Part shown: positions 2,549 through 21,412 of the stretch, piece after piece
Layout of the letters: each line of letters starts with the position of its first letter
Numbering within the stretch: position 1 is the first letter of the stretch
Source: a virus
IMG/VR virus record: IMGVR_UViG_3300035097_000006
Coordinates: 1-23,393 of that record
Length of the DNA stretch: 23,393 bases
Direction: 5' to 3' (one strand)
Made by a program: the position numbers and the translations under genes
The notes under the pieces: model-generated
What the model was told of the DNA's origin: nothing
Seen by the model: the letters and a program-made list of their open reading frames with translations, nothing else
Databases searched by the model: none

Positions 2549-3634
2549 ATGGCACCAGCCTGGGCGCTGCGGACGTTGCCCGTTGCGGCGTACTGGACGG
2601 GCATCGCCTTCGGCAACGGGGTGTTCGTCGCGGTCGGGGGCGGCACCGACACCGGCGCCATCTCCGAGGACGGTGTCACCTGGACGCCGGTTACGCTGCC
2701 CGCGATGGGCGGCTGGTTCTCCATCGCCTTCGGCAACGGGATCTTCGTGGCTATTCCGGGGGAACCCGACCCGCCGGTCAGGATGGTCCTGGCGACGTCG
2801 CCGGACGGCATCAACTGGACGATGGGGCCACGGCACGACTACGAGCCCGCCTACAGCCGGGTCGTCTTCGACAACGGCCTGTTCGTCCTCCTCGACCAGG
2901 GCGGGCGGGCCCAGGCCTCGGTGGACGGCATCACCTGGACCGACACGTTCATCCCCTACCCGGACCCCATGTTCTATCTGGGGTGGACGTCACTGGCGGC
3001 CGGCAACGGGAGATTTGTCGCCGGGCCTGACGTCTCGCCGATGATTGCGTCGTCCTCGGACGGCTTGAACTGGGTGCAGAACAACGTCGGTATCTGGGCC
3101 GGGGTGCGCTGGATCGCCTTCGGCAACGGGGTATTCGTCGCCGCTCTCCACGATGAGTTCACCGGGCAGAGCGCCAGGGATGTCGTGTCATCCCCGGACG
3201 GCATCAACTGGACGTTGAAGACCAACGACGCGCCGTGGAAGGACAACTACACCGGGCCGGCGACGGGGACGTTCGGCAACGGCCTGTTCCTCGCCACGAT
3301 CAACGGGCCACCGTTCACTGAGGTGGGCACCGACGTCGCTTACACCTCTCCCGACGGTGCGGTCTGGACGCCGATCACGCTGCCCGCGGCGGGGGAGTGG
3401 CGGGTGGCCGGGTTCGGCGGCGGCGCTTTCGTCCTGCTCGAGCCCGGGAAGAACATCGCCGCGGTGTGGGGGAAGGTGGGCCCGGCCGGGCCCGGGCCTT
3501 ACCTGCGGTTGACCCAGCGCGACGACGGTCTCGGTATCCAGCAGGCCCCTCGGCTGGCCGGTGCGGACAGCAATGGGCCCACGTCGGTGCAGTCGAACTC
3601 GTCCCGCATCGGGACCAGCAACACCTACCAGTAG
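2549..3634 (+). CDS. beta-propeller tail protein
   Basis: This 361-aa protein is built almost entirely of a repeat of about 45-55 residues: '(I/V)xFGNGxFVA...xxSxDGxxWTxx'. Six full repeats are visible, with FGNG-type cores near residues 21, 61, 109, 152, 191 and 237. A seventh, divergent repeat (AGFGGGAFVLLEPGKN) follows, and the short N-terminal segment could close the ring. Repeats of this type form WD40/sortilin/BNR-like propellers and are common in phage tail and fibre proteins, where they probably bind surface sugars or proteins. The C-terminal 50 residues (GPAGPGPYLRLTQRDDGLG...) leave the propeller and may be a linker or attachment segment. The gene begins immediately after the minor tail stop and is followed by a small tail-fibre-like gene. 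The fold is well supported by the repeats; the ligand is unknown. Confidence 0.7.
   Translation: MAPAWALRTLPVAAYWTGIAFGNGVFVAVGGGTDTGAISEDGVTWTPVTLPAMGGWFSIAFGNGIFVAIPGEPDPPVRMVLATSPDGINWTMGPRHDYEPAYSRVVFDNGLFVLLDQGGRAQASVDGITWTDTFIPYPDPMFYLGWTSLAAGNGRFVAGPDVSPMIASSSDGLNWVQNNVGIWAGVRWIAFGNGVFVAALHDEFTGQSARDVVSSPDGINWTLKTNDAPWKDNYTGPATGTFGNGLFLATINGPPFTEVGTDVAYTSPDGAVWTPITLPAAGEWRVAGFGGGAFVLLEPGKNIAAVWGKVGPAGPGPYLRLTQRDDGLGIQQAPRLAGADSNGPTSVQSNSSRIGTSNTYQ
2603..3213 (+). repeat. propeller-blade DNA repeats
   Basis: The repeat is conserved at the DNA level as well as in protein. The 18-mer atcgccttcggcaacggg occurs exactly at 2603-2620, 2723-2740 and 3113-3130. The 20-mer ccggacggcatcaactggac occurs exactly at 2801-2820 and 3194-3213. 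This points to recent duplication or gene conversion between blades. Confidence 0.8.
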
Positions 3635-5944: not shown

Positions 5945-7525
5945 GTGACCCGACCGGGGCGCGTGGATCAGCTCGAAGCCGACGTCAGCGACGAGATCAA
6001 GCAGTTCTCGCCGATGCTGGAGGTCGGTTCTACCGGTCTGCAGCGCTCCGGTGGTTACGTCAACGACGAGTTCCTCCCGCAGTTGCGCGGTCGGCAGGCC
6101 GTCAAGATCTACCGGGAGATGAGCGACAACTCATCGGTCCTGGGCGCCTGGATGTACACCGTCAAGCAGCTGCTGCGGCAGATCGAGTGGCGCGTCGAGC
6201 CGGCGTCGAGCAAGCCCGAGGACAAGCAGAACGCCGAGTTCGTCGAGCTGGCACTGGGCGACATGGAGCACAGCTTCGCCGATTTCATCTCCGAGGCGTG
6301 CTCGATGATGACCTACGGCTGGTCGGTGCACGAAATCGTGTTCAAGCGACGGATGGGGCTGTGGAGCAAGGACCAACGACACAAGAGCAAGTTCAACGAC
6401 GGCAAGATCGGCTGGCGCAAGCTGCCGATCCGCAGTCAGGACTCACTACTGCGCTGGGTGTTCGCCGAGAACGGCGACGTCGAGGCCATGGTGCAGATGC
6501 CGGCGCCGAAGTACCAGAAGATCGTGTTGCCGATATCGAAGCTGCTGCTGCTGCGGCCCGACCTCAACAAGGGGTCACCCGAGGGCCGGTCCCTGCTGCG
6601 CTCCGCGTACCGGCCGTGGTTCATGACCAAGCGGTTCGAAGAGATCGAGGCCGTCGGCGTCGAGCGTGACCTGACCGGTCTGCCGGTGGCGTTCGTGCCA
6701 CCGAACGTGCTGAACCCCCGTCCGGGTAGCGCCGACGCCAAGATGCTCGAGGCGGTGAAACGGGCGGTCACCGCGGTGCGTCGCAACGAGCAGGAAGGCC
6801 TCGTCTGGCCGCTGATCTACGACGACGACGGTAACAAGCAGTACGACTTCCAGCTGCTCACCTCCGGCGGCAGCCGCCAGTTCGACGTCGGCGCGATCAT
6901 CCAGCGGTACGAGACCCGGATGCTGATGTCGGTGATGGCCGATTTCATCATGACGGGACACGAGAACAGCGGGTCCAGCTACGCGCTGCACACCGACAAG
7001 TCAGGGATCTTCGAGACCGGCGTCAACGGCATCGCCAAGGCGTTCGCCGACCCGTTCAACCGCAAGGCGATTCCGCAGCTGTTCAAGCTCAACGGGTTGC
7101 AGCCCGACGACCTGCCGACGCTGGTGCCGAACAACGTCAACCCGCCCGACCTGGCACAGCTGGCGGCGTTCATCAGCAGTACCGCCGGGGCCGGCATGAC
7201 GTGGTTCCCCGACGGCGAGCTCGAGAAGTTCATCCGCGACGCGGCGCAGCTGCCGAAGGTGGACCCGGCGATCACCGAGCAGCACGACATTCAGATGCGG
7301 CAGCAGGCGATTCTGGCGCTGGCCGAGCAGAAGATGCAGGCCGTTCAGATGCAGATGCAGGCCGCCCAGGGTGAACAGGGCCTGGTGCAGGGCGAGCAGC
7401 AGATCGCCGGTTCTGCTCAGACCCAGCAGATCGAAGCGGATCAGGCCAAGCAGGAGGCGAAGCAGTTGGCGGCCAAACCGACGCCGAGAGCCAAGCCCAA
7501 AGGAAAGGGAGTCGGCACTCGATGA
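5945..7525 (+). CDS. portal protein
   Basis: This 526-aa protein resembles the DUF935/gp6-like portal families. The portal is the dodecameric ring at the capsid vertex through which DNA enters and leaves. Supporting segments include 'RQAVKIYREMSDNSSVLGAW' and 'LLRQIEWRVEPAS' near the N-terminus. Further on are 'ALGDMEHSFADFISEACSMMTYGWSVHEIVFKRR' and 'LPIRSQDSLLRWVF', then 'SPEGRSLLRSAYRPWFMTKRFEEIEAVGVERDLTGLPV', which is highly typical of this family. The C-terminal tail (from about residue 440) is rich in Gln, Ala and Lys and is probably a helical crown or barrel. The start is GTG at 5945, preceded by a strong GGAGGGG site. An upstream start is not needed. Its stop overlaps the next ATG (ATGA). 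Size and position after terL fit well. Confidence 0.9.
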   Translation: MTRPGRVDQLEADVSDEIKQFSPMLEVGSTGLQRSGGYVNDEFLPQLRGRQAVKIYREMSDNSSVLGAWMYTVKQLLRQIEWRVEPASSKPEDKQNAEFVELALGDMEHSFADFISEACSMMTYGWSVHEIVFKRRMGLWSKDQRHKSKFNDGKIGWRKLPIRSQDSLLRWVFAENGDVEAMVQMPAPKYQKIVLPISKLLLLRPDLNKGSPEGRSLLRSAYRPWFMTKRFEEIEAVGVERDLTGLPVAFVPPNVLNPRPGSADAKMLEAVKRAVTAVRRNEQEGLVWPLIYDDDGNKQYDFQLLTSGGSRQFDVGAIIQRYETRMLMSVMADFIMTGHENSGSSYALHTDKSGIFETGVNGIAKAFADPFNRKAIPQLFKLNGLQPDDLPTLVPNNVNPPDLAQLAAFISSTAGAGMTWFPDGELEKFIRDAAQLPKVDPAITEQHDIQMRQQAILALAEQKMQAVQMQMQAAQGEQGLVQGEQQIAGSAQTQQIEADQAKQEAKQLAAKPTPRAKPKGKGVGTR

Positions 7526-12699: not shown

Positions 12700-14337
12700 A
12701 TGCCGACCTCTCCCCCTGCCGCCATCGACCCGGTGTTCGCCGAGGTCGCCAAGGCGATCTACGGGGACGTCGACCCGCGAGAAATCGCCAAGTTCAGTCC
12801 TGGCGGGGCCGACCTGCACGCCGACGGCCCGATGACGCCGGAGCAGGCGAAGAAGCAGAAGAAGCTCGCGCTGGTCGGCCTCGGCGCTACCGGTCTCGCC
12901 ACGGTGGGTGCTGGGCACGCCATCAGTGCCTCCGTCCTGGAGCACCGGCACCGCATCGCCGAGGCACGTGGCGAGCCGCCGCCGGTGCCCAAGGTGAAGA
13001 ACGGCCTGCACCGCCAGGCCGCCCGGGCCGTCGCCCGGAAGCTGAAGCTCAGCCCGGTGAAGACGGCGGGCATCATCGGCGCCGGTGTGCTCGGACTGCA
13101 CGGCGTGGAGCTCGCCAGCGACGTGCTCGGTGCGCACGCCCAGACGAAGCAGCTCCGGGAAGCCAACAAGCAACTCGGGCCCAAGAAGCCGGTGGCGAAG
13201 GCTTTCCGGCTGCGGCCGCTCAACTCACTGCCCGACCAGGTGCCCAGCCTGCGGGCGAAGCGCCCCCGGACGACTCCGCTCCCGGCCAACCCGCGAACGA
13301 AACGTGGTGTGTTCCAACCAGTCTCGAAGGTTGGGGACGTCACGTGGACCGGCTTGTTCAGCAAGGTCGACACCGACAAGCGGCAGGTGTTCGGCTGGGC
13401 CTCGGTCAGTCAGATCAACGGCGAGGACGTCGTCGACCTGCAGGGCGACATCGTCCCGATCGAGGAAATCGAGAAGTCCGCCTACAAGTACGTTCTCGAT
13501 TCCCGCAAGGGCGGGGATATGCACCGCCGGGTGTCCAAGCTCGACGACGGAACCGTGCCGCACCACACCGCGGACATGATCGAGAGTTTCGTCGTCACCC
13601 CGGAGAAGCTCGAGAAGATGGGGCTGCCACCCAACGCCCTGCCTCTCGGATGGTGGGTCGGGTACCACGTCAATGACGACGAGCAGTGGTCGCTGGTGAA
13701 GTCCGGAGCGCGCGCCGGTTTCAGCATCCACGGCAGTGGTACCCGCACCACGGTGTCGAAGATGGGTCCCGAGGTGAAGGACTGGGACGTCTACCACGCG
13801 CTGCGGCGCAAGGGGAAAACCAAGACCTCTGCGGCCAAGATCGCCAATTCGGTGTCCAAGAGCATTCGTGAGGATCTCGACGACGGTCGCAAGCGGCGTC
13901 CGCTCCGATTGAAGGAGCGGACCAGGCAGGCGGTACACCCGCCGCCGGTGAAACTGAAGCCGGTGACCTCGTCGGCGATCGACTCGATGGGCTACCAGCG
14001 CCAGACCCGGCGGCTCTCCGTGCAGATGCACTCCAACCTGGGTCGGCCCTATCAGTACCGGGTGGACCCGAAGGAAGCCTCGGCAGCGCTCAACGCTCCG
14101 TCGCTGGGACATCACTACGCCACCCAGGTCCGCGGCAAAGCGCAGCGAGCCACCCGCTACACCCTCGCCGACCGGGCCCGGTTGTTCGCCAAGCCCGATG
14201 TGTCCAAGGGGTTGTTCAAGGTCAAGCAGGCCATCGACAGTGTGAAGGCCGCTCCGGCCGAGCTGATGAAGCCGCTCGCGACGATGGCGCCAGTGAAGCC
14301 GGGTCTCAAGCCGATCGGAAAGGTTCCTCTCGGATGA
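12700..14337 (+). CDS. XkdF-type prohead protease with hydrophobic N-terminal region
   Basis: Prohead proteases remove scaffold and trim head proteins during capsid maturation. Residues about 212-360 match the putative phage serine protease XkdF family (Peptidase_S78_2): 'VFGWASVSQINGEDVVDLQGDIVPIEEIEKSAYKYV', 'GGDMHRRVSKL', 'ADMIESFVVT', 'GWWVGYHVNDDEQWSLVKSGARAGFSIHG'. The probable catalytic residues are H275 and S342. Unusually, the first 200 residues hold two glycine-rich hydrophobic segments (about 56-75 and 122-145) separated by basic helices, like the small basic proteins encoded downstream. The N-terminal AIYGDVDPREIAKF (residues 19-32) may be a degenerate copy of their shared SAFGV motif. 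The basic C-terminal tail (370-545) is unassigned. The ATG start is 31 bases after the previous stop without a strong Shine-Dalgarno. The stop overlaps the next gene (ATGA). The protease call is strong; the catalytic pair is by family analogy. Confidence 0.85.
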   Translation: MPTSPPAAIDPVFAEVAKAIYGDVDPREIAKFSPGGADLHADGPMTPEQAKKQKKLALVGLGATGLATVGAGHAISASVLEHRHRIAEARGEPPPVPKVKNGLHRQAARAVARKLKLSPVKTAGIIGAGVLGLHGVELASDVLGAHAQTKQLREANKQLGPKKPVAKAFRLRPLNSLPDQVPSLRAKRPRTTPLPANPRTKRGVFQPVSKVGDVTWTGLFSKVDTDKRQVFGWASVSQINGEDVVDLQGDIVPIEEIEKSAYKYVLDSRKGGDMHRRVSKLDDGTVPHHTADMIESFVVTPEKLEKMGLPPNALPLGWWVGYHVNDDEQWSLVKSGARAGFSIHGSGTRTTVSKMGPEVKDWDVYHALRRKGKTKTSAAKIANSVSKSIREDLDDGRKRRPLRLKERTRQAVHPPPVKLKPVTSSAIDSMGYQRQTRRLSVQMHSNLGRPYQYRVDPKEASAALNAPSLGHHYATQVRGKAQRATRYTLADRARLFAKPDVSKGLFKVKQAIDSVKAAPAELMKPLATMAPVKPGLKPIGKVPLG

Positions 14338-16529
14338 CGGATACCACGGAAACGGCTGCATCCCTGCGGACAAAGGCCCGGCGGCAGCAGCAGGACAACG
14401 CGAAGCACCACCTGCGGGCCGCCGGTGGGGCCATGGCCCTCGTGGGCGGCTCCGGGCTGGCCATCAATGCAAGTGAACGTCGCTTCGCGGCGAAGGCCGC
14501 CGCACACAAGATGGCGGTGAACGCCCGCACCAGGGAGAAGTACTTCCGCGGCCCATCGGGGCAGCCTTCTCGGCCGACCGACAACGAGTTCGCCCGTGCC
14601 AAGATGCTCGGCCGCCGGTACCGGCGCGCCGGCCGGGTTCGCGCTGGCACCGCCGGTCTGGCGGTCGCCGGCGCGGCGACCATGCTCCACCAGGGGCACA
14701 AGGCCGACAAGGGCGACAAAGAGGTGCGCGAACTGCGGGCCAGGGCGAACAAGCTGGCTCGCGCCGAGCGCCCGGTCTCCCGGCGCCCGGTCACCAAGCG
14801 GGATGCGCTCGGGGTCGAGATCAGCAAGGACGAGCCGCCGACCGCCGCAGCGCTGCGCGAGTCGGCGAAGGCAAACCGGAAGCAGGGGTCCAAGCATCGG
14901 TTGGTGGCCATCGGCTCCGGACTCGCGTCGTACGGAGGACTGCATGGTGCGGTCGCGGCCCGGAACAAGCAGGCCGGCGTCCTGGCCGATGCGTTCGAGT
15001 TGCAGCGCCGAGTGGGACAGCGGCGGAACATGGCGACCCCCGAGCAACTCGAGCGGGCCGTCGCACTCGGCCGGACCCACCGGCTGGCCCGGGCCGGCAA
15101 GATAGCGGGTCTCACCACTGCAGCGGTGGCCACTCCGGTGGCGTGGCACCAGAGCGCGAAAGCCAATTCGCTCGACGCCAAGGCGCGGCAGCAGAACTGG
15201 CGGGCCCGGAAGATGGAGCGCGCCGAGCAGAAGGCCACCCGGGTGGCCAAGGTCGATGCGTTCGGTGTCGACCGTGAGGCGCTGTTCAAGGCGGACACCC
15301 CACTGCCGGGCGACAACCCGCATGCCGAAGCGGCCCGGCGCCGCCGGAAGGCGGGTCTCACCGTCGCCGGTGTCGGCTACCTGGCCTCCTCGCGCACCAA
15401 GGACGTCGCGCCGGGTGCGGCCGATTTCCTCACCCGGCCGCAGAAGGCACTGAACCGGAAGGGGATCAGCCCGAAGGCACGGGCCCGGATAGTCGACATG
15501 CGGGCCGCGAAGATGACGCGAATGGGCGGAAAGGCCGGCTTCGTCCTGGTGGGTACCGGAATCGGCGGTGCTGCCGAGGGCGCGGTGACCGACTTGCGGG
15601 AGCGTGATGCGCTGCGGCGGACCAGGGAGCAGGCGAGAGTGAAACTGCAGGCGAAGAAGCAGGAACGGCTGACCAAATCGGCGTTCGGCGTCGACCACGG
15701 TGACGTCGGGAAGGCCTATCAGCCGGGGTCGATCACTCTCCACCAGGAGCAGGCGGATCTGCACGCCCGGAAGAAGGGCTCCGCGCAGCGCCGGATGGAA
15801 GGCGGACTGATCGCCATCCCGGCCAGTGCGGCGGTCGCAAGTGCAGCGCATCGGGTCGCGCCGAATATCGCCGAGATGGTCCACGGCAAGTCCCGGGTCG
15901 GCGACAAGGTGGCGGATCGCGTCAAGCTCATCCGCCAGATTCGCCACGGCGCCAAGGTCGGTGGCGTGGTCGGTACCGCCGGTGGGGCCATGGTGGCCAC
16001 CGAGGGCGCCCTCTCGCGGGTCCGGCACGCGCACGGCCAGAACAAGGAGACCAAGCGGGCCCAGCAGGCGCGCAAGGCTCGCAACGCCACTCTCACGAAG
16101 GCGTTCGACTCCGAGCGGGCCCGGCACGGTCGCCAGGACATGTACGCCAGTGGTGCCACCGGTGGCGCGATCCTCGCCGGCGGTGCCGGAGTCGCCACCG
16201 GCGTGGCCGGTCGCCGGGCCGGTGCAGCCAGCCATGCCGAGGAACAGGAAAGCAAGAAGGCGTACCGGAAGGCGCGGTCCAACCTGAGCAGCATGGCCTC
16301 GAGCTCGAAGGGCACCAAGCCCAAGACGGCGGCGAACATCAAGGAGACTCAGGACCACCTCGCGCGAATGATGGAGCACCACGACGCCGCTGGGAACTTC
16401 GCCACCAGGGCCAAGAGGTTCCACCGGATTTCGCGCGCTTCACTGGCCGGCGCGGCCGTGCTGGGCACGGGAGCGTATGCCGCCCACGACTACGACCGCC
16501 GCCGCGGCGGTCGTTCCTACGGTTACTGA
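14334..16529 (+). CDS. tandem-module basic glycine-rich internal protein (polyprotein-like)
   Basis: This 731-aa protein is very rich in Lys, Arg, Ala and Gly. It divides into five units at copies of a short motif: DALGVEISKDE at residue 157, DAFGVDREALFKAD at 308, SAFGVDHGDVGKAY at 449 and the weak AFDSERARHGR at 590. Intervals are 151, 141 and 141 residues, and the last unit is 142 residues long. Each unit carries a basic helix and a glycine-rich hydrophobic segment (for example RLVAIGSGLASYGGLHGAV). A charged stretch and a second hydrophobic segment (for example AGKIAGLTTAAVATPVAW) follow, then another basic helix. It has no known enzymatic domain. Lying between the protease and scaffold genes, it could be a set of fused internal head proteins that are cleaved at the motifs and injected to act at the membrane or on DNA. 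That role is inferred; the repeat structure is directly visible. Confidence 0.7.
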   Translation: MTDTTETAASLRTKARRQQQDNAKHHLRAAGGAMALVGGSGLAINASERRFAAKAAAHKMAVNARTREKYFRGPSGQPSRPTDNEFARAKMLGRRYRRAGRVRAGTAGLAVAGAATMLHQGHKADKGDKEVRELRARANKLARAERPVSRRPVTKRDALGVEISKDEPPTAAALRESAKANRKQGSKHRLVAIGSGLASYGGLHGAVAARNKQAGVLADAFELQRRVGQRRNMATPEQLERAVALGRTHRLARAGKIAGLTTAAVATPVAWHQSAKANSLDAKARQQNWRARKMERAEQKATRVAKVDAFGVDREALFKADTPLPGDNPHAEAARRRRKAGLTVAGVGYLASSRTKDVAPGAADFLTRPQKALNRKGISPKARARIVDMRAAKMTRMGGKAGFVLVGTGIGGAAEGAVTDLRERDALRRTREQARVKLQAKKQERLTKSAFGVDHGDVGKAYQPGSITLHQEQADLHARKKGSAQRRMEGGLIAIPASAAVASAAHRVAPNIAEMVHGKSRVGDKVADRVKLIRQIRHGAKVGGVVGTAGGAMVATEGALSRVRHAHGQNKETKRAQQARKARNATLTKAFDSERARHGRQDMYASGATGGAILAGGAGVATGVAGRRAGAASHAEEQESKKAYRKARSNLSSMASSSKGTKPKTAANIKETQDHLARMMEHHDAAGNFATRAKRFHRISRASLAGAAVLGTGAYAAHDYDRRRGGRSYGY

Positions 16530-16541
16530 GAAGGGTCGCCG

Positions 16542-17075
16542 ATGTCGTCATTCGGTCCTGGAGAAGCTCCCATCTCCAAGAAGGGCGTGTACCGCAACGT
16601 GCGGGCGGCCGCTGAGAACGCAAGCCAGGCGTCGTCGCATGCCGAAGAGACCGCCAGGAAGATCAAGCTCCTGGTCCCCACGAGGCGAACCGCCGCCCTG
16701 GCAGCTGCTGGGCTCGGGACCGCACTGACCGGTGCGACCTATGCGGGGACCAAGGCCGGTACCTATGCGGGAACCCGGCCGGCCCGGAAGAAGGTCAAGA
16801 AGTCGGCGTTCGGCGTCGATGACGACCGGATCAGCAAAGCTGACGCCGACCCGTTGCAGCCACCGAAGGACCGCAAGAAGCTGAAGTACGCCGGTGCCAT
16901 CTTCGGCACCGGCATGCTCGCGGGACACGGCGGACGGGCCATCGCCCGTGCCGCCGGGGCCAGCGCGAAGACGCAGGGCGCAGTGTTCAATACCGCCGGT
17001 GCCGCCGGCTACGTCGGTGGCGGAATGGGCTACGCGGCCCACCGTCGGACCCAGAACTACGGGAGTGTCGGATGA
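16542..17075 (+). CDS. small basic glycine-rich protein, SAFGV-motif family
   Basis: This 177-aa protein starts at ATG 16542, twelve bases after the previous stop. Its N-terminus, SSFGPGEAPISKKG, looks like a diverged copy of the shared motif. A clear copy, SAFGVDDDRISKAD, begins at residue 88 after a basic stretch (RPARKKVKK), so the protein appears to hold two units. The first has hydrophobic glycine-zipper residues about 48-77 (TAALAAAGLGTALTGATYAG). The second has KYAGAIFGTGMLAGHGGRAI and a following GAAGYVGGGMGYAAH. The composition suggests a small membrane-inserting, DNA-tolerant (basic) protein. It is probably co-packaged in the head with its neighbours, as inferred from operon position. 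The stop overlaps the next start (ATGA). No function can be assigned from sequence alone. Confidence 0.65.
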   Translation: MSSFGPGEAPISKKGVYRNVRAAAENASQASSHAEETARKIKLLVPTRRTAALAAAGLGTALTGATYAGTKAGTYAGTRPARKKVKKSAFGVDDDRISKADADPLQPPKDRKKLKYAGAIFGTGMLAGHGGRAIARAAGASAKTQGAVFNTAGAAGYVGGGMGYAAHRRTQNYGSVG

Positions 17076-17401
17076 ACCTGTCAGCGTTCGGAGTCGAGGA
17101 CGGCCGCATCTCCAAGGCGGAGCGCAAGCCTGCGAGCGGGGGTCGGACCGCCGCCGGAATGCTCTTCCCCGGTTACCACGGCGCGCTCGTCGGGAAGCCG
17201 GGCAAGAAGCTGCGCTCGGTGGGCAACGAGCTCGGCGGCAACATCGGCGGAGGTCTCGTCGGGGCTACCGCGGGACGGCTCATTGCCCGCAAGAACCCGG
17301 CTGTCGGCACAATGATCGGCGCTCAGGCCGGTGGCTTGACCGGGGGCGGCCTCGGAACCCGTCGTGCGCATCGCCGGGGCTACTACAAGCCGGAACGGTA
17401 A
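17072..17401 (+). CDS. small glycine-zipper protein with N-terminal SAFGV motif
   Basis: This 109-aa protein begins MNLSAFGVEDGRISKAERK, an intact copy of the shared motif directly at the N-terminus. The remainder is glycine-rich with GxxxG spacing: 'GNELGGNIGGGLVGATAGRLIARKN' and 'GTMIGAQAGGLTGGGLGTRRAHRRG'. This is a pattern of close-packed membrane helices or amyloid-like/glycine-zipper proteins. It ends in a basic tail. It overlaps the gene before it by 4 bases, and its TAA shares a base with the ATG of the ADP-ribosyltransferase gene (TAATG), so its translation is probably coupled to that gene. It is the shortest stand-alone member of the family here. A role as an internal, injected membrane protein is an inference from composition and context. 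Confidence 0.7.
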   Translation: MNLSAFGVEDGRISKAERKPASGGRTAAGMLFPGYHGALVGKPGKKLRSVGNELGGNIGGGLVGATAGRLIARKNPAVGTMIGAQAGGLTGGGLGTRRAHRRGYYKPER

Positions 17402-18711
17402 TGCTCTCGGCCTTCGGGGTCGATGACGGCCGACTGGTCAAGGCCAAAAAGCTGACCGACGAGCAGAAGCGCACCGCCACCGGTGTCGGCGTCACCGGGG
17501 CGGGCGTCTACGGCTACCACGCGGGGACGTCCCTGCGTGCCCGCAACACCGCGCAACACCTGTCCGACCCGGAGCGGGCGAAGCACGCGGCGGAGACGAT
17601 GGCCGCTCAGCGCGGCCATGCGGCGACCGAGAGTGTCTCCACCCCCTACGAGGGGATTCGGAGGCAGCAGTCGGCGTACGACAAGGCAACGAAGGCGAAC
17701 CCGGATGTGAAGCGGGTCCGGGATTCCGCCGACCGGTGGTCGAGCACCTTTCGTTCGGTCAAGCGGATCCGCCGCGCCTACGACAAAGAGGCTCCGGTCC
17801 CCGGGGTGGGCCGGGTGCTGCTGCGCCCGGTCAAGTCCAAGGCCGAGTCCGATTCGAACGTGATGCGCCATCTCAACAACGCCAAGACCGAGGGACCGAC
17901 CCTGCACCGCGGGATGCGCACCGCCAAGCAGAGCTACAAGGTCGGCGACGAGGTGGATTTCCACGACCTCACGTCCTGGTCCGCCGACAAGAAGGTCGCG
18001 GGTCATTTCGCCGCTCGCGGCAGGGCCAAGCACGGGACGCCGCACGTCTTCCAGCGGGACCCCGGGCATGCCACGTCGTACGAGTCGGCCTCCCCGCAGT
18101 TCCAGCAGCGGGAGTGGGTCGCCGGCGGCAAGCACAAGGTCACCGGTATCAACCCCGACGGGTCGATCCGGGTCAGCCACATCAAGGCCGCCACCAACTT
18201 CGCCCGCTTCGCCAAGTTCGCAACCAGCACCGAGGAGATCACCATGGCCATGTCGGCGTTCGGCGTCGAGGACAGCCGGCTCAGCAAGGCCGACGACCGG
18301 CGGACCTCGACCGGGCTGGCGGCGACCTCGGGTGCTGTCGGCGGCGCCGGTGGCGTGGTGCTGTCCGCACGACGCGAGCTCGGACAGCACAAGGACCTGA
18401 TGGCCACCGCGGCTGAGCACGGCGACAACGCCAAGTTCTACGGAGGCCGACAGGCCAGTCACAACCGCCGGGTCGCCAGGGCTGCCGCCGGCCGAGCTCC
18501 CGGCTGGAGCTCCGTGGCCGCCGAGCACGCCGGCAACGCGCATGTATTCGGTGGCCTGGCAGCCGAGAACAAGGCCGATCAGGCCCGGGCCCTGCGGAGA
18601 GCGAAGAACATCCGGGGTGTCGTCGGCGTTCGGGCCGGGGTCGGACTCGCCGCCGGTGCGGCGGGAGCCGGTCTCGGTGCGGCGATCCACAACCGCGGAA
18701 AGAGGTCCTGA
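17401..18711 (+). CDS. ADP-ribosyltransferase with SAFGV motif, fused to a second SAFGV unit
   Basis: This 436-aa protein begins MLSAFGVDDGRLVKAK, the shared N-terminal motif, followed by one hydrophobic segment and charged helices. Residues about 150-275 carry the ADP-ribosyltransferase signature. It comprises TLHRGM (R170, NAD binding), a DLTSWSAD segment (S192-W-S194) with a helix ending in HFAARG, and FQQREWVAGGKHKV with Q236-R237-E238 (catalytic Glu). Q-x-E in place of E-x-E is the form seen in C3-like enzymes that modify Asn rather than Arg. At residue 282 a new unit starts in frame, MAMSAFGVEDSRLSKAD, preceded by its own GAGGAG ribosome-binding site. It has a glycine-rich segment at each end. 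T4 Alt is a precedent for an ART packaged in the head and injected. Start chosen at 17401 because it overlaps the preceding stop (TAATG) and places the motif at the N-terminus. The target is unknown. Confidence 0.82.
   Translation: MLSAFGVDDGRLVKAKKLTDEQKRTATGVGVTGAGVYGYHAGTSLRARNTAQHLSDPERAKHAAETMAAQRGHAATESVSTPYEGIRRQQSAYDKATKANPDVKRVRDSADRWSSTFRSVKRIRRAYDKEAPVPGVGRVLLRPVKSKAESDSNVMRHLNNAKTEGPTLHRGMRTAKQSYKVGDEVDFHDLTSWSADKKVAGHFAARGRAKHGTPHVFQRDPGHATSYESASPQFQQREWVAGGKHKVTGINPDGSIRVSHIKAATNFARFAKFATSTEEITMAMSAFGVEDSRLSKADDRRTSTGLAATSGAVGGAGGVVLSARRELGQHKDLMATAAEHGDNAKFYGGRQASHNRRVARAAAGRAPGWSSVAAEHAGNAHVFGGLAAENKADQARALRRAKNIRGVVGVRAGVGLAAGAAGAGLGAAIHNRGKRS
18232..18246 (+). promoter_or_regulatory. 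internal ribosome-binding site and start within the ART gene
   Basis: GAGGAG at 18232-18237 is followed six bases later by ATG at 18244, and a second ATG lies at 18250. Translation from here gives a 155-aa protein ending at 18711 that starts MAMSAFGVEDSRLSKAD, just like the stand-alone family members. The ART frame has no stop before it. The gene may therefore produce both a long fusion and a short product, or be a recent fusion of two neighbouring genes. Confidence 0.5.
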
Positions 18712-18763
18712 CATGGTCCTGTCGGCGTTCGGCGTCGAGGACGGTTGGCTCAGCAAGGCCGAC
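18253..18763 (+). repeat. near-identical 42-bp motif repeats at 18253-18294 and 18722-18763
   Basis: The two copies of the motif-coding DNA share their first 21 bases and the last 17, with three mismatches over 42 bases. Such DNA-level identity in otherwise diverged genes suggests recent duplication of the motif or recombination through it. Confidence 0.75.
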
Positions 18764-19099
18764 GGTGACGGGCGGCGGCGAGCTGCGAACGTCGGTGCCA
18801 CGCTTACCGGCGCGGCGGCCGGTGGTTTCGGAGCCAACGCAGCCCACACCGAGTTGGAGTCCCGCAGAGCCGGACGAGCGGCCAGCGTCCGCCGCTTCCG
18901 GGTTGTCAACCAGAGTCTCCGCGATCTTGCTGGCAGCAAGACGGGCGAGGCGGCAAACACGGCCCGACAAGCGGCCTGGCTGGAAAACGCCTCCAAGGAT
19001 CTCGGTCGCAAGGCGGTGCGCAGAGGTACCGCAGCTACCGGGCTGGCAGTGGCGTCCGGCGGGCTGGCCCTCTACGGCCACCACCGCAAGAAGTCCTGA
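18713..19099 (+). CDS. small basic glycine-rich protein with N-terminal SAFGV motif
   Basis: This 128-aa protein starts at ATG 18713, one base after the preceding stop (TGACATG). It reads MVLSAFGVEDGWLSKADGDG, the shared motif at the N-terminus. A glycine-rich hydrophobic segment follows (NVGATLTGAAAGGFGANAA, about residues 24-43). A charged central region comes next (ELESRRAGRAASVRRFRVVNQSLRDLAG...), then a second hydrophobic segment (TAATGLAVASGGLALYGHH) and a basic end, KKS. This two-hydrophobic-segment layout is the same as that of the units in the 731-aa protein. The longer open frame starting upstream at 18542 is not used, because it would overlap the previous gene heavily. The function is unknown. 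It is inferred to be co-packaged with the other family members. Confidence 0.72.
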   Translation: MVLSAFGVEDGWLSKADGDGRRRAANVGATLTGAAAGGFGANAAHTELESRRAGRAASVRRFRVVNQSLRDLAGSKTGEAANTARQAAWLENASKDLGRKAVRRGTAATGLAVASGGLALYGHHRKKS

Positions 19100-19148: not shown

Positions 19149-19979
19149 GTGCCACGAGCAGTGCAACGGGTCACCGATATGGAAATCGACGAGGTTTCCA
19201 TGGTCGATCGAGCCGCCTGCCCGCCCGCAACGATCGTGTTCTCCAAACGCGCTGACCAGGAGGAAAGCATGCCGGACTACCTCGATGCGGACGGCGAGCC
19301 GCTCGACCTGAGTCAGTTCGAGGAAGGCGACATCCTCGAAGACGACGACGGTAACCAGTTCATGGTCACCTTCGGGGACCCCGAGGATGCCGATGACGTC
19401 GACTACGACGATGCCGACGAACTCGACGACGATCGCGAACTCGTCGGAATCGGCAAATCGGCGTTCGGTGCGCCGGCCGAGGACCCGGTGATCGCTTCCA
19501 TCCGCGAATCGCTGTCCAAGGCGGTGAACGAGCAGGACCGCGACGCCGTCCTGTCGAAGGCGTTCACCTCCCTGAGCAAGCGGGCTCAGCAGGCCGAGTC
19601 CCAGCTGGCCCACGCCGCGCAGATCGCCAAGAGCGAGCGCGACCTGCGGCTGCAGCGGGAGTACATCTCCAAGGCCGCCGAGTACAACGTGCCGATCGAT
19701 GCCGAGGAGCTCGGACCGGTGCTGATGCGGGCCGCGGAGGCGTTGTCCTACGACGACTGCGCCGTGATCCACAAGGCTCTGTCCGCCGCCGGCGCGATGC
19801 TCTACGAGGAGGCCGGCTACGACGGCATGGGCGCTCCCGAGGATCCGATGGACCAGATCGACGCCTTCCTCGGCGACGTGGTGTCCAAGGGGCAGGGCAT
19901 GACGCCCGAGCTCGCAACGACCGCCTTCTTCGACAGCAACCCGGGTGCGTACGACGCCATCCGGGCCGAGCGGCGCTGA
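19149..19979 (+). CDS. scaffold-like capsid assembly protein
   Basis: This 276-aa acidic protein has a GTG start after a strong AAAGGAGG site at 19134-19141, consistent with high expression. Residues 8-34, 'VTDMEIDEVSMVDRAACPPATIVFSKR', match a segment (DEVSLVDxxANxxAxxVxxKR) frequent in phage prohead protease and scaffold proteins. An Asp/Glu-rich stretch (about 43-98) follows, then GKSAFGAPAEDPV at 102-114, a copy of the motif shared by the upstream basic proteins. The rest is a helical, probably coiled-coil region (LSKRAQQAESQLAHAAQIAKSERDLRLQREYISKAA), ending with short helices. Position just before the decoration and major capsid genes, size and helicity fit a scaffold. An internal ATG at 19270 could give a shorter form. 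The scaffold role is inferred; no catalytic residues are apparent. Confidence 0.7.
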   Translation: MPRAVQRVTDMEIDEVSMVDRAACPPATIVFSKRADQEESMPDYLDADGEPLDLSQFEEGDILEDDDGNQFMVTFGDPEDADDVDYDDADELDDDRELVGIGKSAFGAPAEDPVIASIRESLSKAVNEQDRDAVLSKAFTSLSKRAQQAESQLAHAAQIAKSERDLRLQREYISKAAEYNVPIDAEELGPVLMRAAEALSYDDCAVIHKALSAAGAMLYEEAGYDGMGAPEDPMDQIDAFLGDVVSKGQGMTPELATTAFFDSNPGAYDAIRAERR

Positions 19980-20407: not shown

Positions 20408-21412
20408 ATGCCACAGAACCCCGGCGGTCCTGATCTTCACATTGATCGACCGCTCACCAACGTCTCGGTCGCGTACTTCCAGGACCCCAACGACTTCATC
20501 GCCGACAAGGTGTTCCCGGCGATCCCGGTCGACAAGCGGTCCGACATGTACTGGAAGTACACCAAGTCGGATTGGCGTCGCTCGGACTCGCAGAAGCGAG
20601 CACCCGGTACCGAGTCGGCCGGCATCGGCTGGTCGAACCAGACCGGGACGTACTACTGCGACGTCTACGCCGCGCACGTCGACATCGACGCGCAGACCAG
20701 GGCGAACGCCGACAGCAACTGGAACCTGGATTCCGACGCCAGCAGGCTGGTCACCCAGCACCTGCTGCTGCAGAAGGACCGGATCTGGGGCCAGAAGTAC
20801 TTCAAGCCCGGGGTCTGGAACAAGGAGTACCAGGGCGTCGCCGCCAGCCCGAGCGGGGACAGTGAGTTCCTGCAGCTCGACCAGGCCTCCAGCGACCCGC
20901 TGAACCTGTCCACCGGCTGGCTCACCGCCTTCCGGCTGGACATCGGCCGCAAGGCCAACTTCATGGTCGTCGGGGTCGACGTCTGGAAGGCGATCAAGAA
21001 CCACGAGGCGATCCTCGACCGGATCAAGTACACCCAGAAGGGCGTCATCACCGAGGAGCTCGTCGCCGAGTTCTTCGGCATCGACGACATCTACGTGGGC
21101 TACGCCTCCGAGGCCGTCGGCCCGCAGATCAACGACGGCGTCCTCCAGGACGAACAGACCGACTACGAGTGGATGCTCGACCCGAAGTCCATGCTGATCG
21201 GGTACCGCCCGAAGCGGCCCGGACTGCTGGAGCCGTCGGCGGGCTACACCTTCAACTGGCGGGGCTACGGCGCCGGCAACCGGTACGGGCTCACTATGAG
21301 CAACTTCCCGGACCTGAAGACCCGCTCGGATCGGATCGAGGGCGAGGCCGCCTACTCCCTGGAGCAGGTGTCCAAGGACTGCGGCATGTTCTACAAGAAC
21401 GTGGTCGGCTGA
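20408..21412 (+). CDS. major capsid protein
   Basis: This is a 334-aa protein whose N-terminus, 'HIDRPLTNVSVAYFQDPNDFIADKVFPAIPVDKRSDMYWKYTKSDWRR', is very typical of a widespread actinophage and siphophage major capsid family with the HK97 fold. Other typical parts are 'IGWSNQTGTYYCDVYAAHVDID', the A-domain-like 'FRLDIGRKANFMVVGVDVWKAIKNHEAILDRIKYTQKGVITEELVAEFFGIDDIYVGYA', and the ending 'ADxxTxSNFPDLKTRSDRIEGEAAYSLEQVSKDCGMFYKNVVG'-like tail. It forms the capsid shell. There is no long N-terminal delta domain, consistent with a separate scaffold gene upstream. It starts at ATG 20408 after GAGAGG. A strong hairpin follows the stop, as expected after a highly expressed gene. Confidence 0.92.
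   Translation: MPQNPGGPDLHIDRPLTNVSVAYFQDPNDFIADKVFPAIPVDKRSDMYWKYTKSDWRRSDSQKRAPGTESAGIGWSNQTGTYYCDVYAAHVDIDAQTRANADSNWNLDSDASRLVTQHLLLQKDRIWGQKYFKPGVWNKEYQGVAASPSGDSEFLQLDQASSDPLNLSTGWLTAFRLDIGRKANFMVVGVDVWKAIKNHEAILDRIKYTQKGVITEELVAEFFGIDDIYVGYASEAVGPQINDGVLQDEQTDYEWMLDPKSMLIGYRPKRPGLLEPSAGYTFNWRGYGAGNRYGLTMSNFPDLKTRSDRIEGEAAYSLEQVSKDCGMFYKNVVG

Follow-up and report, generated by a model that had tools for sequence, protein, structure and literature searches.

A probable phage ADP-ribosyltransferase carries a peptide tag of head-module proteins that may be a capsid-targeting propeptide

The 23.4-kb fragment of an uncultivated virus analyzed here (IMG/VR record IMGVR_UViG_3300035097_000006, positions 1 to 23,393; hereafter, the window) contains an open reading frame (ORF) at 17401-18711 that a first-pass annotation, made from the sequence alone, described as an ADP-ribosyltransferase (ART) with a shared N-terminal tag, likely packaged in the capsid and injected into the host. 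Our analyses support the assignment of the first unit of this ORF to the R-S-E class of ARTs by family and predicted fold, and reveal that the tag is conserved on many unrelated proteins encoded around the head genes of related phages. With somewhat better than even confidence, we favor a reading in which the tag is a capsid-targeting propeptide that includes a protease site, and the ART is packaged, freed by cutting, injected and active on a host protein in an NAD-dependent manner. The sequence observation underlying the annotation was confirmed, and its interpretation as a whole is partly supported.

The ORF is open from the ATG at 17401 to the stop at 18711 and encodes 436 amino acids. Its ART catalytic domain spans residues 161 to 260 (17881..18180, + strand), and R170 (17908-17910), S192-W-S194 (17974-17982) and Q236-R-E238 (18106-18114, all +) lie, in this order, where the first-pass annotation had placed them. 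An ART-like pattern (R, an S/T-rich SWS-type motif and [QE]xE) scanned over 14,534 open segments matched only the window ORF, a homolog in L011 (plus loci that overlap these on the same contigs) and one ART in L064; L-numbered loci are the viral contigs used for comparison. The L011 homolog is 32 to 35% identical to the window ART and keeps the R, SWS and QxE motifs. Further viral ARTs were gathered starting from the L064 ART, which is itself above the Pfam ART cut-off. In a joint alignment of 15 sequences (the window ART, L011 and 13 other viral ARTs), the Arg (R170), the first Ser (S192) and the Glu (E238) do not vary, and all sequences but one have Q or E two residues ahead of the Glu. A profile comparison of the window and L011 sequences with the other viral ARTs (16) gave a score of 43.5, with an E value of 2.6e-6 and a probability of 88.6; the highest null scores were 17.7 (100 column shuffles) and 20.0 (145 unrelated ORFs). 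A profile of the other viral ARTs, with the window left out, retrieved the solved ARTs Vis, Tre1, HopU1 and C3-type enzymes.

Structure prediction and comparison with known ARTs, among the checks that the annotation had proposed, agreed with this assignment. A model computed with ART relatives in the alignment has a predicted local distance difference test (pLDDT) value of ~90 over most of residues 161 to 260 and a predicted template modeling (pTM) score of 0.61. All 50 PDB matches listed for it are ARTs, and comparison with solved structures gave a Foldseek value of 2.8e-5 to Vis and a VIA Z of 9.5 to Vis and Tre1. Among viral structures, many of the matches bear the annotation ADP-ribosyltransferase, portal or minor capsid protein, and T4-type ADP-ribosylases appear among many phage ARTs. 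The window ART thus resembles Vis, Tre1, HopU1 and the C3 enzymes in predicted fold and R/S/E motifs but is only 7 to 20% identical to them, and its proposed delivery route is different. By analogy with C3-type enzymes, QxE in the active site points to a non-arginine acceptor.

Residues 1 to 14 of the ORF are MLSAFGVDDGRLVK, one of eight copies of the tag in the window, which span all three + frames. The N-terminal tag itself, SAFGVDDGRLVK, occupies 17407..17442 (+), with a predicted cut after its last lysine (17440-17442). To define the tag, related contigs were gathered by their capsid and protease proteins and then by the pattern SAFGV[DE]HG. The consensus from 139 distinct N-terminal tags of these related uncultivated phages is SAFGV[DE]H-G-x(n)-[IV][SE]K, the next residue being mostly A or G; that is, S-A-F-G followed by V/I, D/E and H/D, mostly a G, a short variable spacer and [IV]-[SEA]-K. 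There are two tag clades, SAFGVED and SAFGVDH. A [hydrophobic]-x-K block follows shortly after SAFG in 133 of the 139 tags (expected, 10.5; maximum in 500 shuffles, 24), and the lysine is followed by A in 58 tags and by G in 22. The first-pass annotation had missed this second conserved block ending in lysine, as well as the presence of two tagged units in the ORF. The tags use all four Ala and all four Gly codons, and all six Ser codons occur at the first position, indicating selection on the protein and not on the DNA.

The tag is also conserved in its position. In 14 longer virus records, all 70 tag matches lie on the head-gene strand, with no match for the reversed pattern, and 63 fall in a region that reaches from 22 kb upstream to 8 kb downstream of the capsid gene and makes up ~40% of the records. 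In two head modules mapped gene by gene, the portal, protease, scaffold and capsid genes are untagged and the tagged genes lie between them like cassettes. Besides N-termini, tags are placed at C-termini and inside ORFs. The tag is independent of the body that carries it; by BLAST, the bodies of the 139 tags form ~56 sequence families, grouped around the head genes. Their ORFs are basic, with a net charge per residue of +0.109 compared to -0.018 for untagged ORFs of the same loci, and Pfam scans of 20 ORFs from related phages, mostly tagged, found almost no named family. Five tagged proteins contain HExxH (0.7 expected; maximum of 4 in 300 shuffles) and are possible metallopeptidases, without Pfam matches (L024:412-1221, L024:18007-18651, L083:6778-7554, L093:1055-1846 and L100:1862-2623).

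A link to the head protease comes from L011, in which the ART module is fused behind an XkdF-like head protease with the joint at ISK. The sequence after the joint is MTDEEKH in L011 (behind ISK) and LTDEQKR in the window (behind the tag RLVK and AKK). The same module therefore sits behind the protease in one phage and behind the tag in the other, and a cut site is predicted at each joint. No SAFGV block was found in the L011 protease-ART ORF, which would make sense if the protease fusion stands in for the address. Among 53 related proteases, 45 end soon after FSIHGxGxR; eight continue past it, seven of them with [ILV][SA]K in this place, and the ISK joint of L011 lies near the usual end of unfused proteases. 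Each internal tag of the window is flanked by lysine on either side, and the lysines beside N-terminal, C-terminal and internal tags would fit removal of the address by cutting, whatever its placement.

These features recall phage T4, in which a ten-residue capsid targeting sequence (CTS) on internal proteins is cut by gp21 after L/I-X-E and in which Alt, an injected ART, has propeptides at both ends (PMC9026906). As with Alt and the CTS-bearing IPI-III, the tag is a short peptide at the N-terminus of proteins that are otherwise unrelated and include an ART; as in the CTS, a putative targeting part precedes a hydrophobic-x-charged candidate site for the head protease, and the cargo is basic (PMC9026906). 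Unlike the CTS, the tag has a different sequence, K instead of E at the proposed cut and an XkdF-type protease as its partner; it is found on more proteins per genome, also internally and C-terminally. The gp21-type motif L/I-x-E is absent from the tag, its conserved block being [IVL]-x-K instead. Moreover, the CTS is experimentally proven, and the role of the SAFGV tag is predicted. We propose that the tag works like a CTS and, given the [IVL]-x-K block, do not class it as a T4-type CTS. The annotation's comparison of its tag to a T4 targeting peptide in role gains from the conserved K|A site, the unrelated bodies and the L011 ART-protease fusion.

In the mechanism that we favor, the ART would be produced together with the head proteins, its N-terminal SAFGVDDGRLVK being one copy of the group-wide tag. 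The SAFGV[DE][HD] block would bring the tagged protein into the assembling procapsid, where the XkdF-like head protease would cut the [IVL]-x-K block after the lysine ([IV]-x-K|A), as gp21 cuts the T4 targeting sequences. The freed ART would remain with the DNA, be ejected into the next host and there modify a host protein using NAD. The annotation's proposals of packaging, injection and NAD-dependent activity are consistent with our data, as is its suggested role in defence or takeover, which is possible; the target would be a host protein. Whether the bipartite tag SAFGV[DE]H-G-x(n)-[IV][SE]K|A more generally loads the capsid with many interchangeable proteins that are to be injected, ARTs and HExxH proteins included, such that the tag alone would list the injected set, is in our judgment evenly balanced.

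The annotation had treated 17401-18711 as one ART. This stands for the first unit (approximately residues 1 to 280) and not for residues 281 to 436, which form a second tagged basic protein in the same frame (18244..18711, +; beginning MAMSAFGVEDSRLSK, with tag SAFGVEDSRLSK at 18253-18288). GAGGAG (18232-18237), a ribosome-binding site of its own, lies six bases upstream of the ATG at 18244, a possible separate start of the second unit. Because of this second full tag and the GAGGAG, the ART is probably residues 1 to ~280 of the ORF rather than all of it. L002, a second contig from nearly the same virus, covers residues 250 to 436 at 100% identity, so the joined frame is found beyond the window record. 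Either a fusion or a separate ART may be made, or both, and the tag between the two units would permit them to be cut apart. A candidate homology of the C-terminal half of the ORF to a separate L011 gene was unsupported after the tag was excluded.

The position of the ART gene among late head genes would also suit an enzyme that acts late inside the producing cell, like T4 ModA or ModB, with the tag serving some other assembly role (e.g., as a scaffold-binding or DNA-condensing peptide) and no injection; indeed, many tagged proteins are small and basic and lack enzyme-like motifs. We consider this unlikely, given that the L011 ART module is fused to a head protease, which acts within procapsids, that the tag has two parts and a conserved K|A site, and that HExxH proteins occur among the tagged bodies (5 versus 0.7 expected). 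Somewhat less probable still is that the protein has the ART fold but, instead of modifying proteins for takeover, consumes NAD or acts as a toxin on competing phages or cells. Transferases and NAD glycohydrolases are inseparable by sequence, and MuF-linked ARTs have been proposed as phage-borne toxins (PMC5576092). Against this, the window and L011 proteins keep the Q-x-E arrangement of R-S-E transferases, and no immunity gene turned up, in analyses that included no search aimed at one.

That the ART has become inactive and serves a head protein as a structural domain or filler, we regard as improbable: only two close sequences are known, yet at 32 to 35% identity both retain R, SWS and Q-x-E. 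Because the tag recurs at gene starts, it might instead be a repeated DNA element (a regulatory or recombination site) translated by chance. We give this reading almost no weight, as it is contradicted by the use of all six Ser and all four Ala and Gly codons, by the confinement of the tag to one strand and the gene frame, and by its presence at C-termini and inside ORFs.

Several points weigh against the capsid-targeting reading and its ART. Pfam and PHROG scans of the window ART alone matched no curated family, and L011 is its one close ART homolog among the viral contigs. A model from the two sequences reached a pLDDT of 38 and was not used; as a good model required ART relatives in the alignment, the fold evidence depends partly on that alignment. 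A small number of tag matches are over 20 kb away from the capsid gene. Of 26 C-terminal tags, 24 have lysine on the side facing the body (expected, 15.8; maximum in 500 shuffles, 22), a result modestly above chance in these basic proteins, in which lysine is common. Finally, recruitment, cleavage, ejection, ART activity and target are steps that we infer.

The window encodes a head module with large terminase, portal, 1123-aa protein, 592-aa protein, XkdF-like head protease, tagged genes, scaffold-like protein and major capsid protein, the features given below with coordinates, from the portal to the major capsid protein, being on the + strand; the annotation had rightly placed the ART ORF among head genes. 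The portal (5945..7525; phrog_113, E 2e-77) and major capsid protein (20408..21412; phrog_1005, E 6e-76) carry no tag, and their best annotated matches are in Arthrobacter and Microbacterium phages. The protease (12700..14337; PF14550, E 3.8e-14) has Peptidase_S78_2 at residues 220 to 349, followed by DUF7218 and KTSC regions, with VSK at a junction within the ORF (13753-13761). Next is a 731-aa protein (14334..16529) with three internal tags (14802-14828, 15255-15290 and 15678-15713), each with a lysine directly before it and a lysine at its end; it is perhaps polyprotein-like, built of tagged units. A 177-aa protein (16542..17075) has the internal tag KKSAFGVDDDRISKAD (SAFG...SK at 16803-16838), and a 109-aa basic protein (17072..17401) has SAFGVEDGRISK at 17081-17116. 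The start of the ART ORF overlaps the stop codon of the gene upstream (TAATG). Downstream lie a 128-aa basic protein (18713..19099) with tag SAFGVEDGWLSK at 18722-18757 and, upstream of the capsid gene, the acidic scaffold-like protein (19149..19979) with the partial tag KSAFGAP (SAFG at 19458) and several SK sites. The partial tag is KSAFGAS in L008 and is lacking in the L193 scaffold. Adjoining the terminase gene, 2549-3634 encodes repeated IAFGNG-F units with a beta-propeller look.

Among the related phages, a tagged protein adjoining the protease gene resembles ParB-type domains by eye (VRYKDG...FDGNHRA; L024:10777-13257, L087:3884-5239 and L193:10554-11870), with no family match for those scanned. 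A MuF-type head-morphogenesis protein (L193:7468-9486) has a tag-like FSK-SAFGI-VRK directly after its MuF region, at the joint to the C-terminal part. A tagged 157-aa protein (L114:3657-4127) was set aside as a further ART, its Arr-type likeness (YYHAS...LKAGD) being by eye only, without database support.

Searches outside this group gave little. The tag peptide found no convincing match in phage and plasmid records, at a sensitivity that is low for so short a query, and the tag is absent from the examined parts of five phage records in which the portal, capsid or protease is related. A genome-collection scan for MxSAFGV[DE]HG gave one match, judged to be chance because the frame stops after ~35 residues. 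A tblastn search of phage records with the window ART found no match. No paper in the open-access library searched contains the string SAFGV, and we found no earlier description of the tag there; one may exist.

Short terminal peptides that load unrelated cargo into an HK97-fold shell are known from encapsulins, in which they are mostly C-terminal and are not cut off. The SAFGV tag is like them as a terminal, putatively cargo-loading peptide and differs in sequence. ARTs are frequent in the head contexts of phages (PMC9503650), and the fusion of enzyme domains to head proteins is well established (PMC5512222). The window ART shares its broad class and head gene context with the ARTs in or fused to MuF, portal and polyvalent proteins (PMC9503650, PMC5512222). 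Unlike the MuF and portal ARTs, it lies in an ORF without a portal domain or, by Pfam and PHROG scans, a MuF match, and has a separate short tag, or the protease fusion in L011. The same scans gave no family match that would relate it specifically in sequence to T4 Alt, ModA or ModB.

Head-packaged ARTs are already known, and what sets this system apart is the tag sequence, the protease type, the lysine at the proposed cut, the use of the tag at both ends and internally, and the many cargo families. We judge the tag to be more important than the enzyme itself. Proteins injected with phage DNA are hard to know from sequence, and if the tag is a packaging label, they could be read from the genome. 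The T4-like targeting-peptide strategy would then exist in a different phage lineage with another type of protease, and a pool of orphan genes, the window ART included, would become candidate effectors of early infection.
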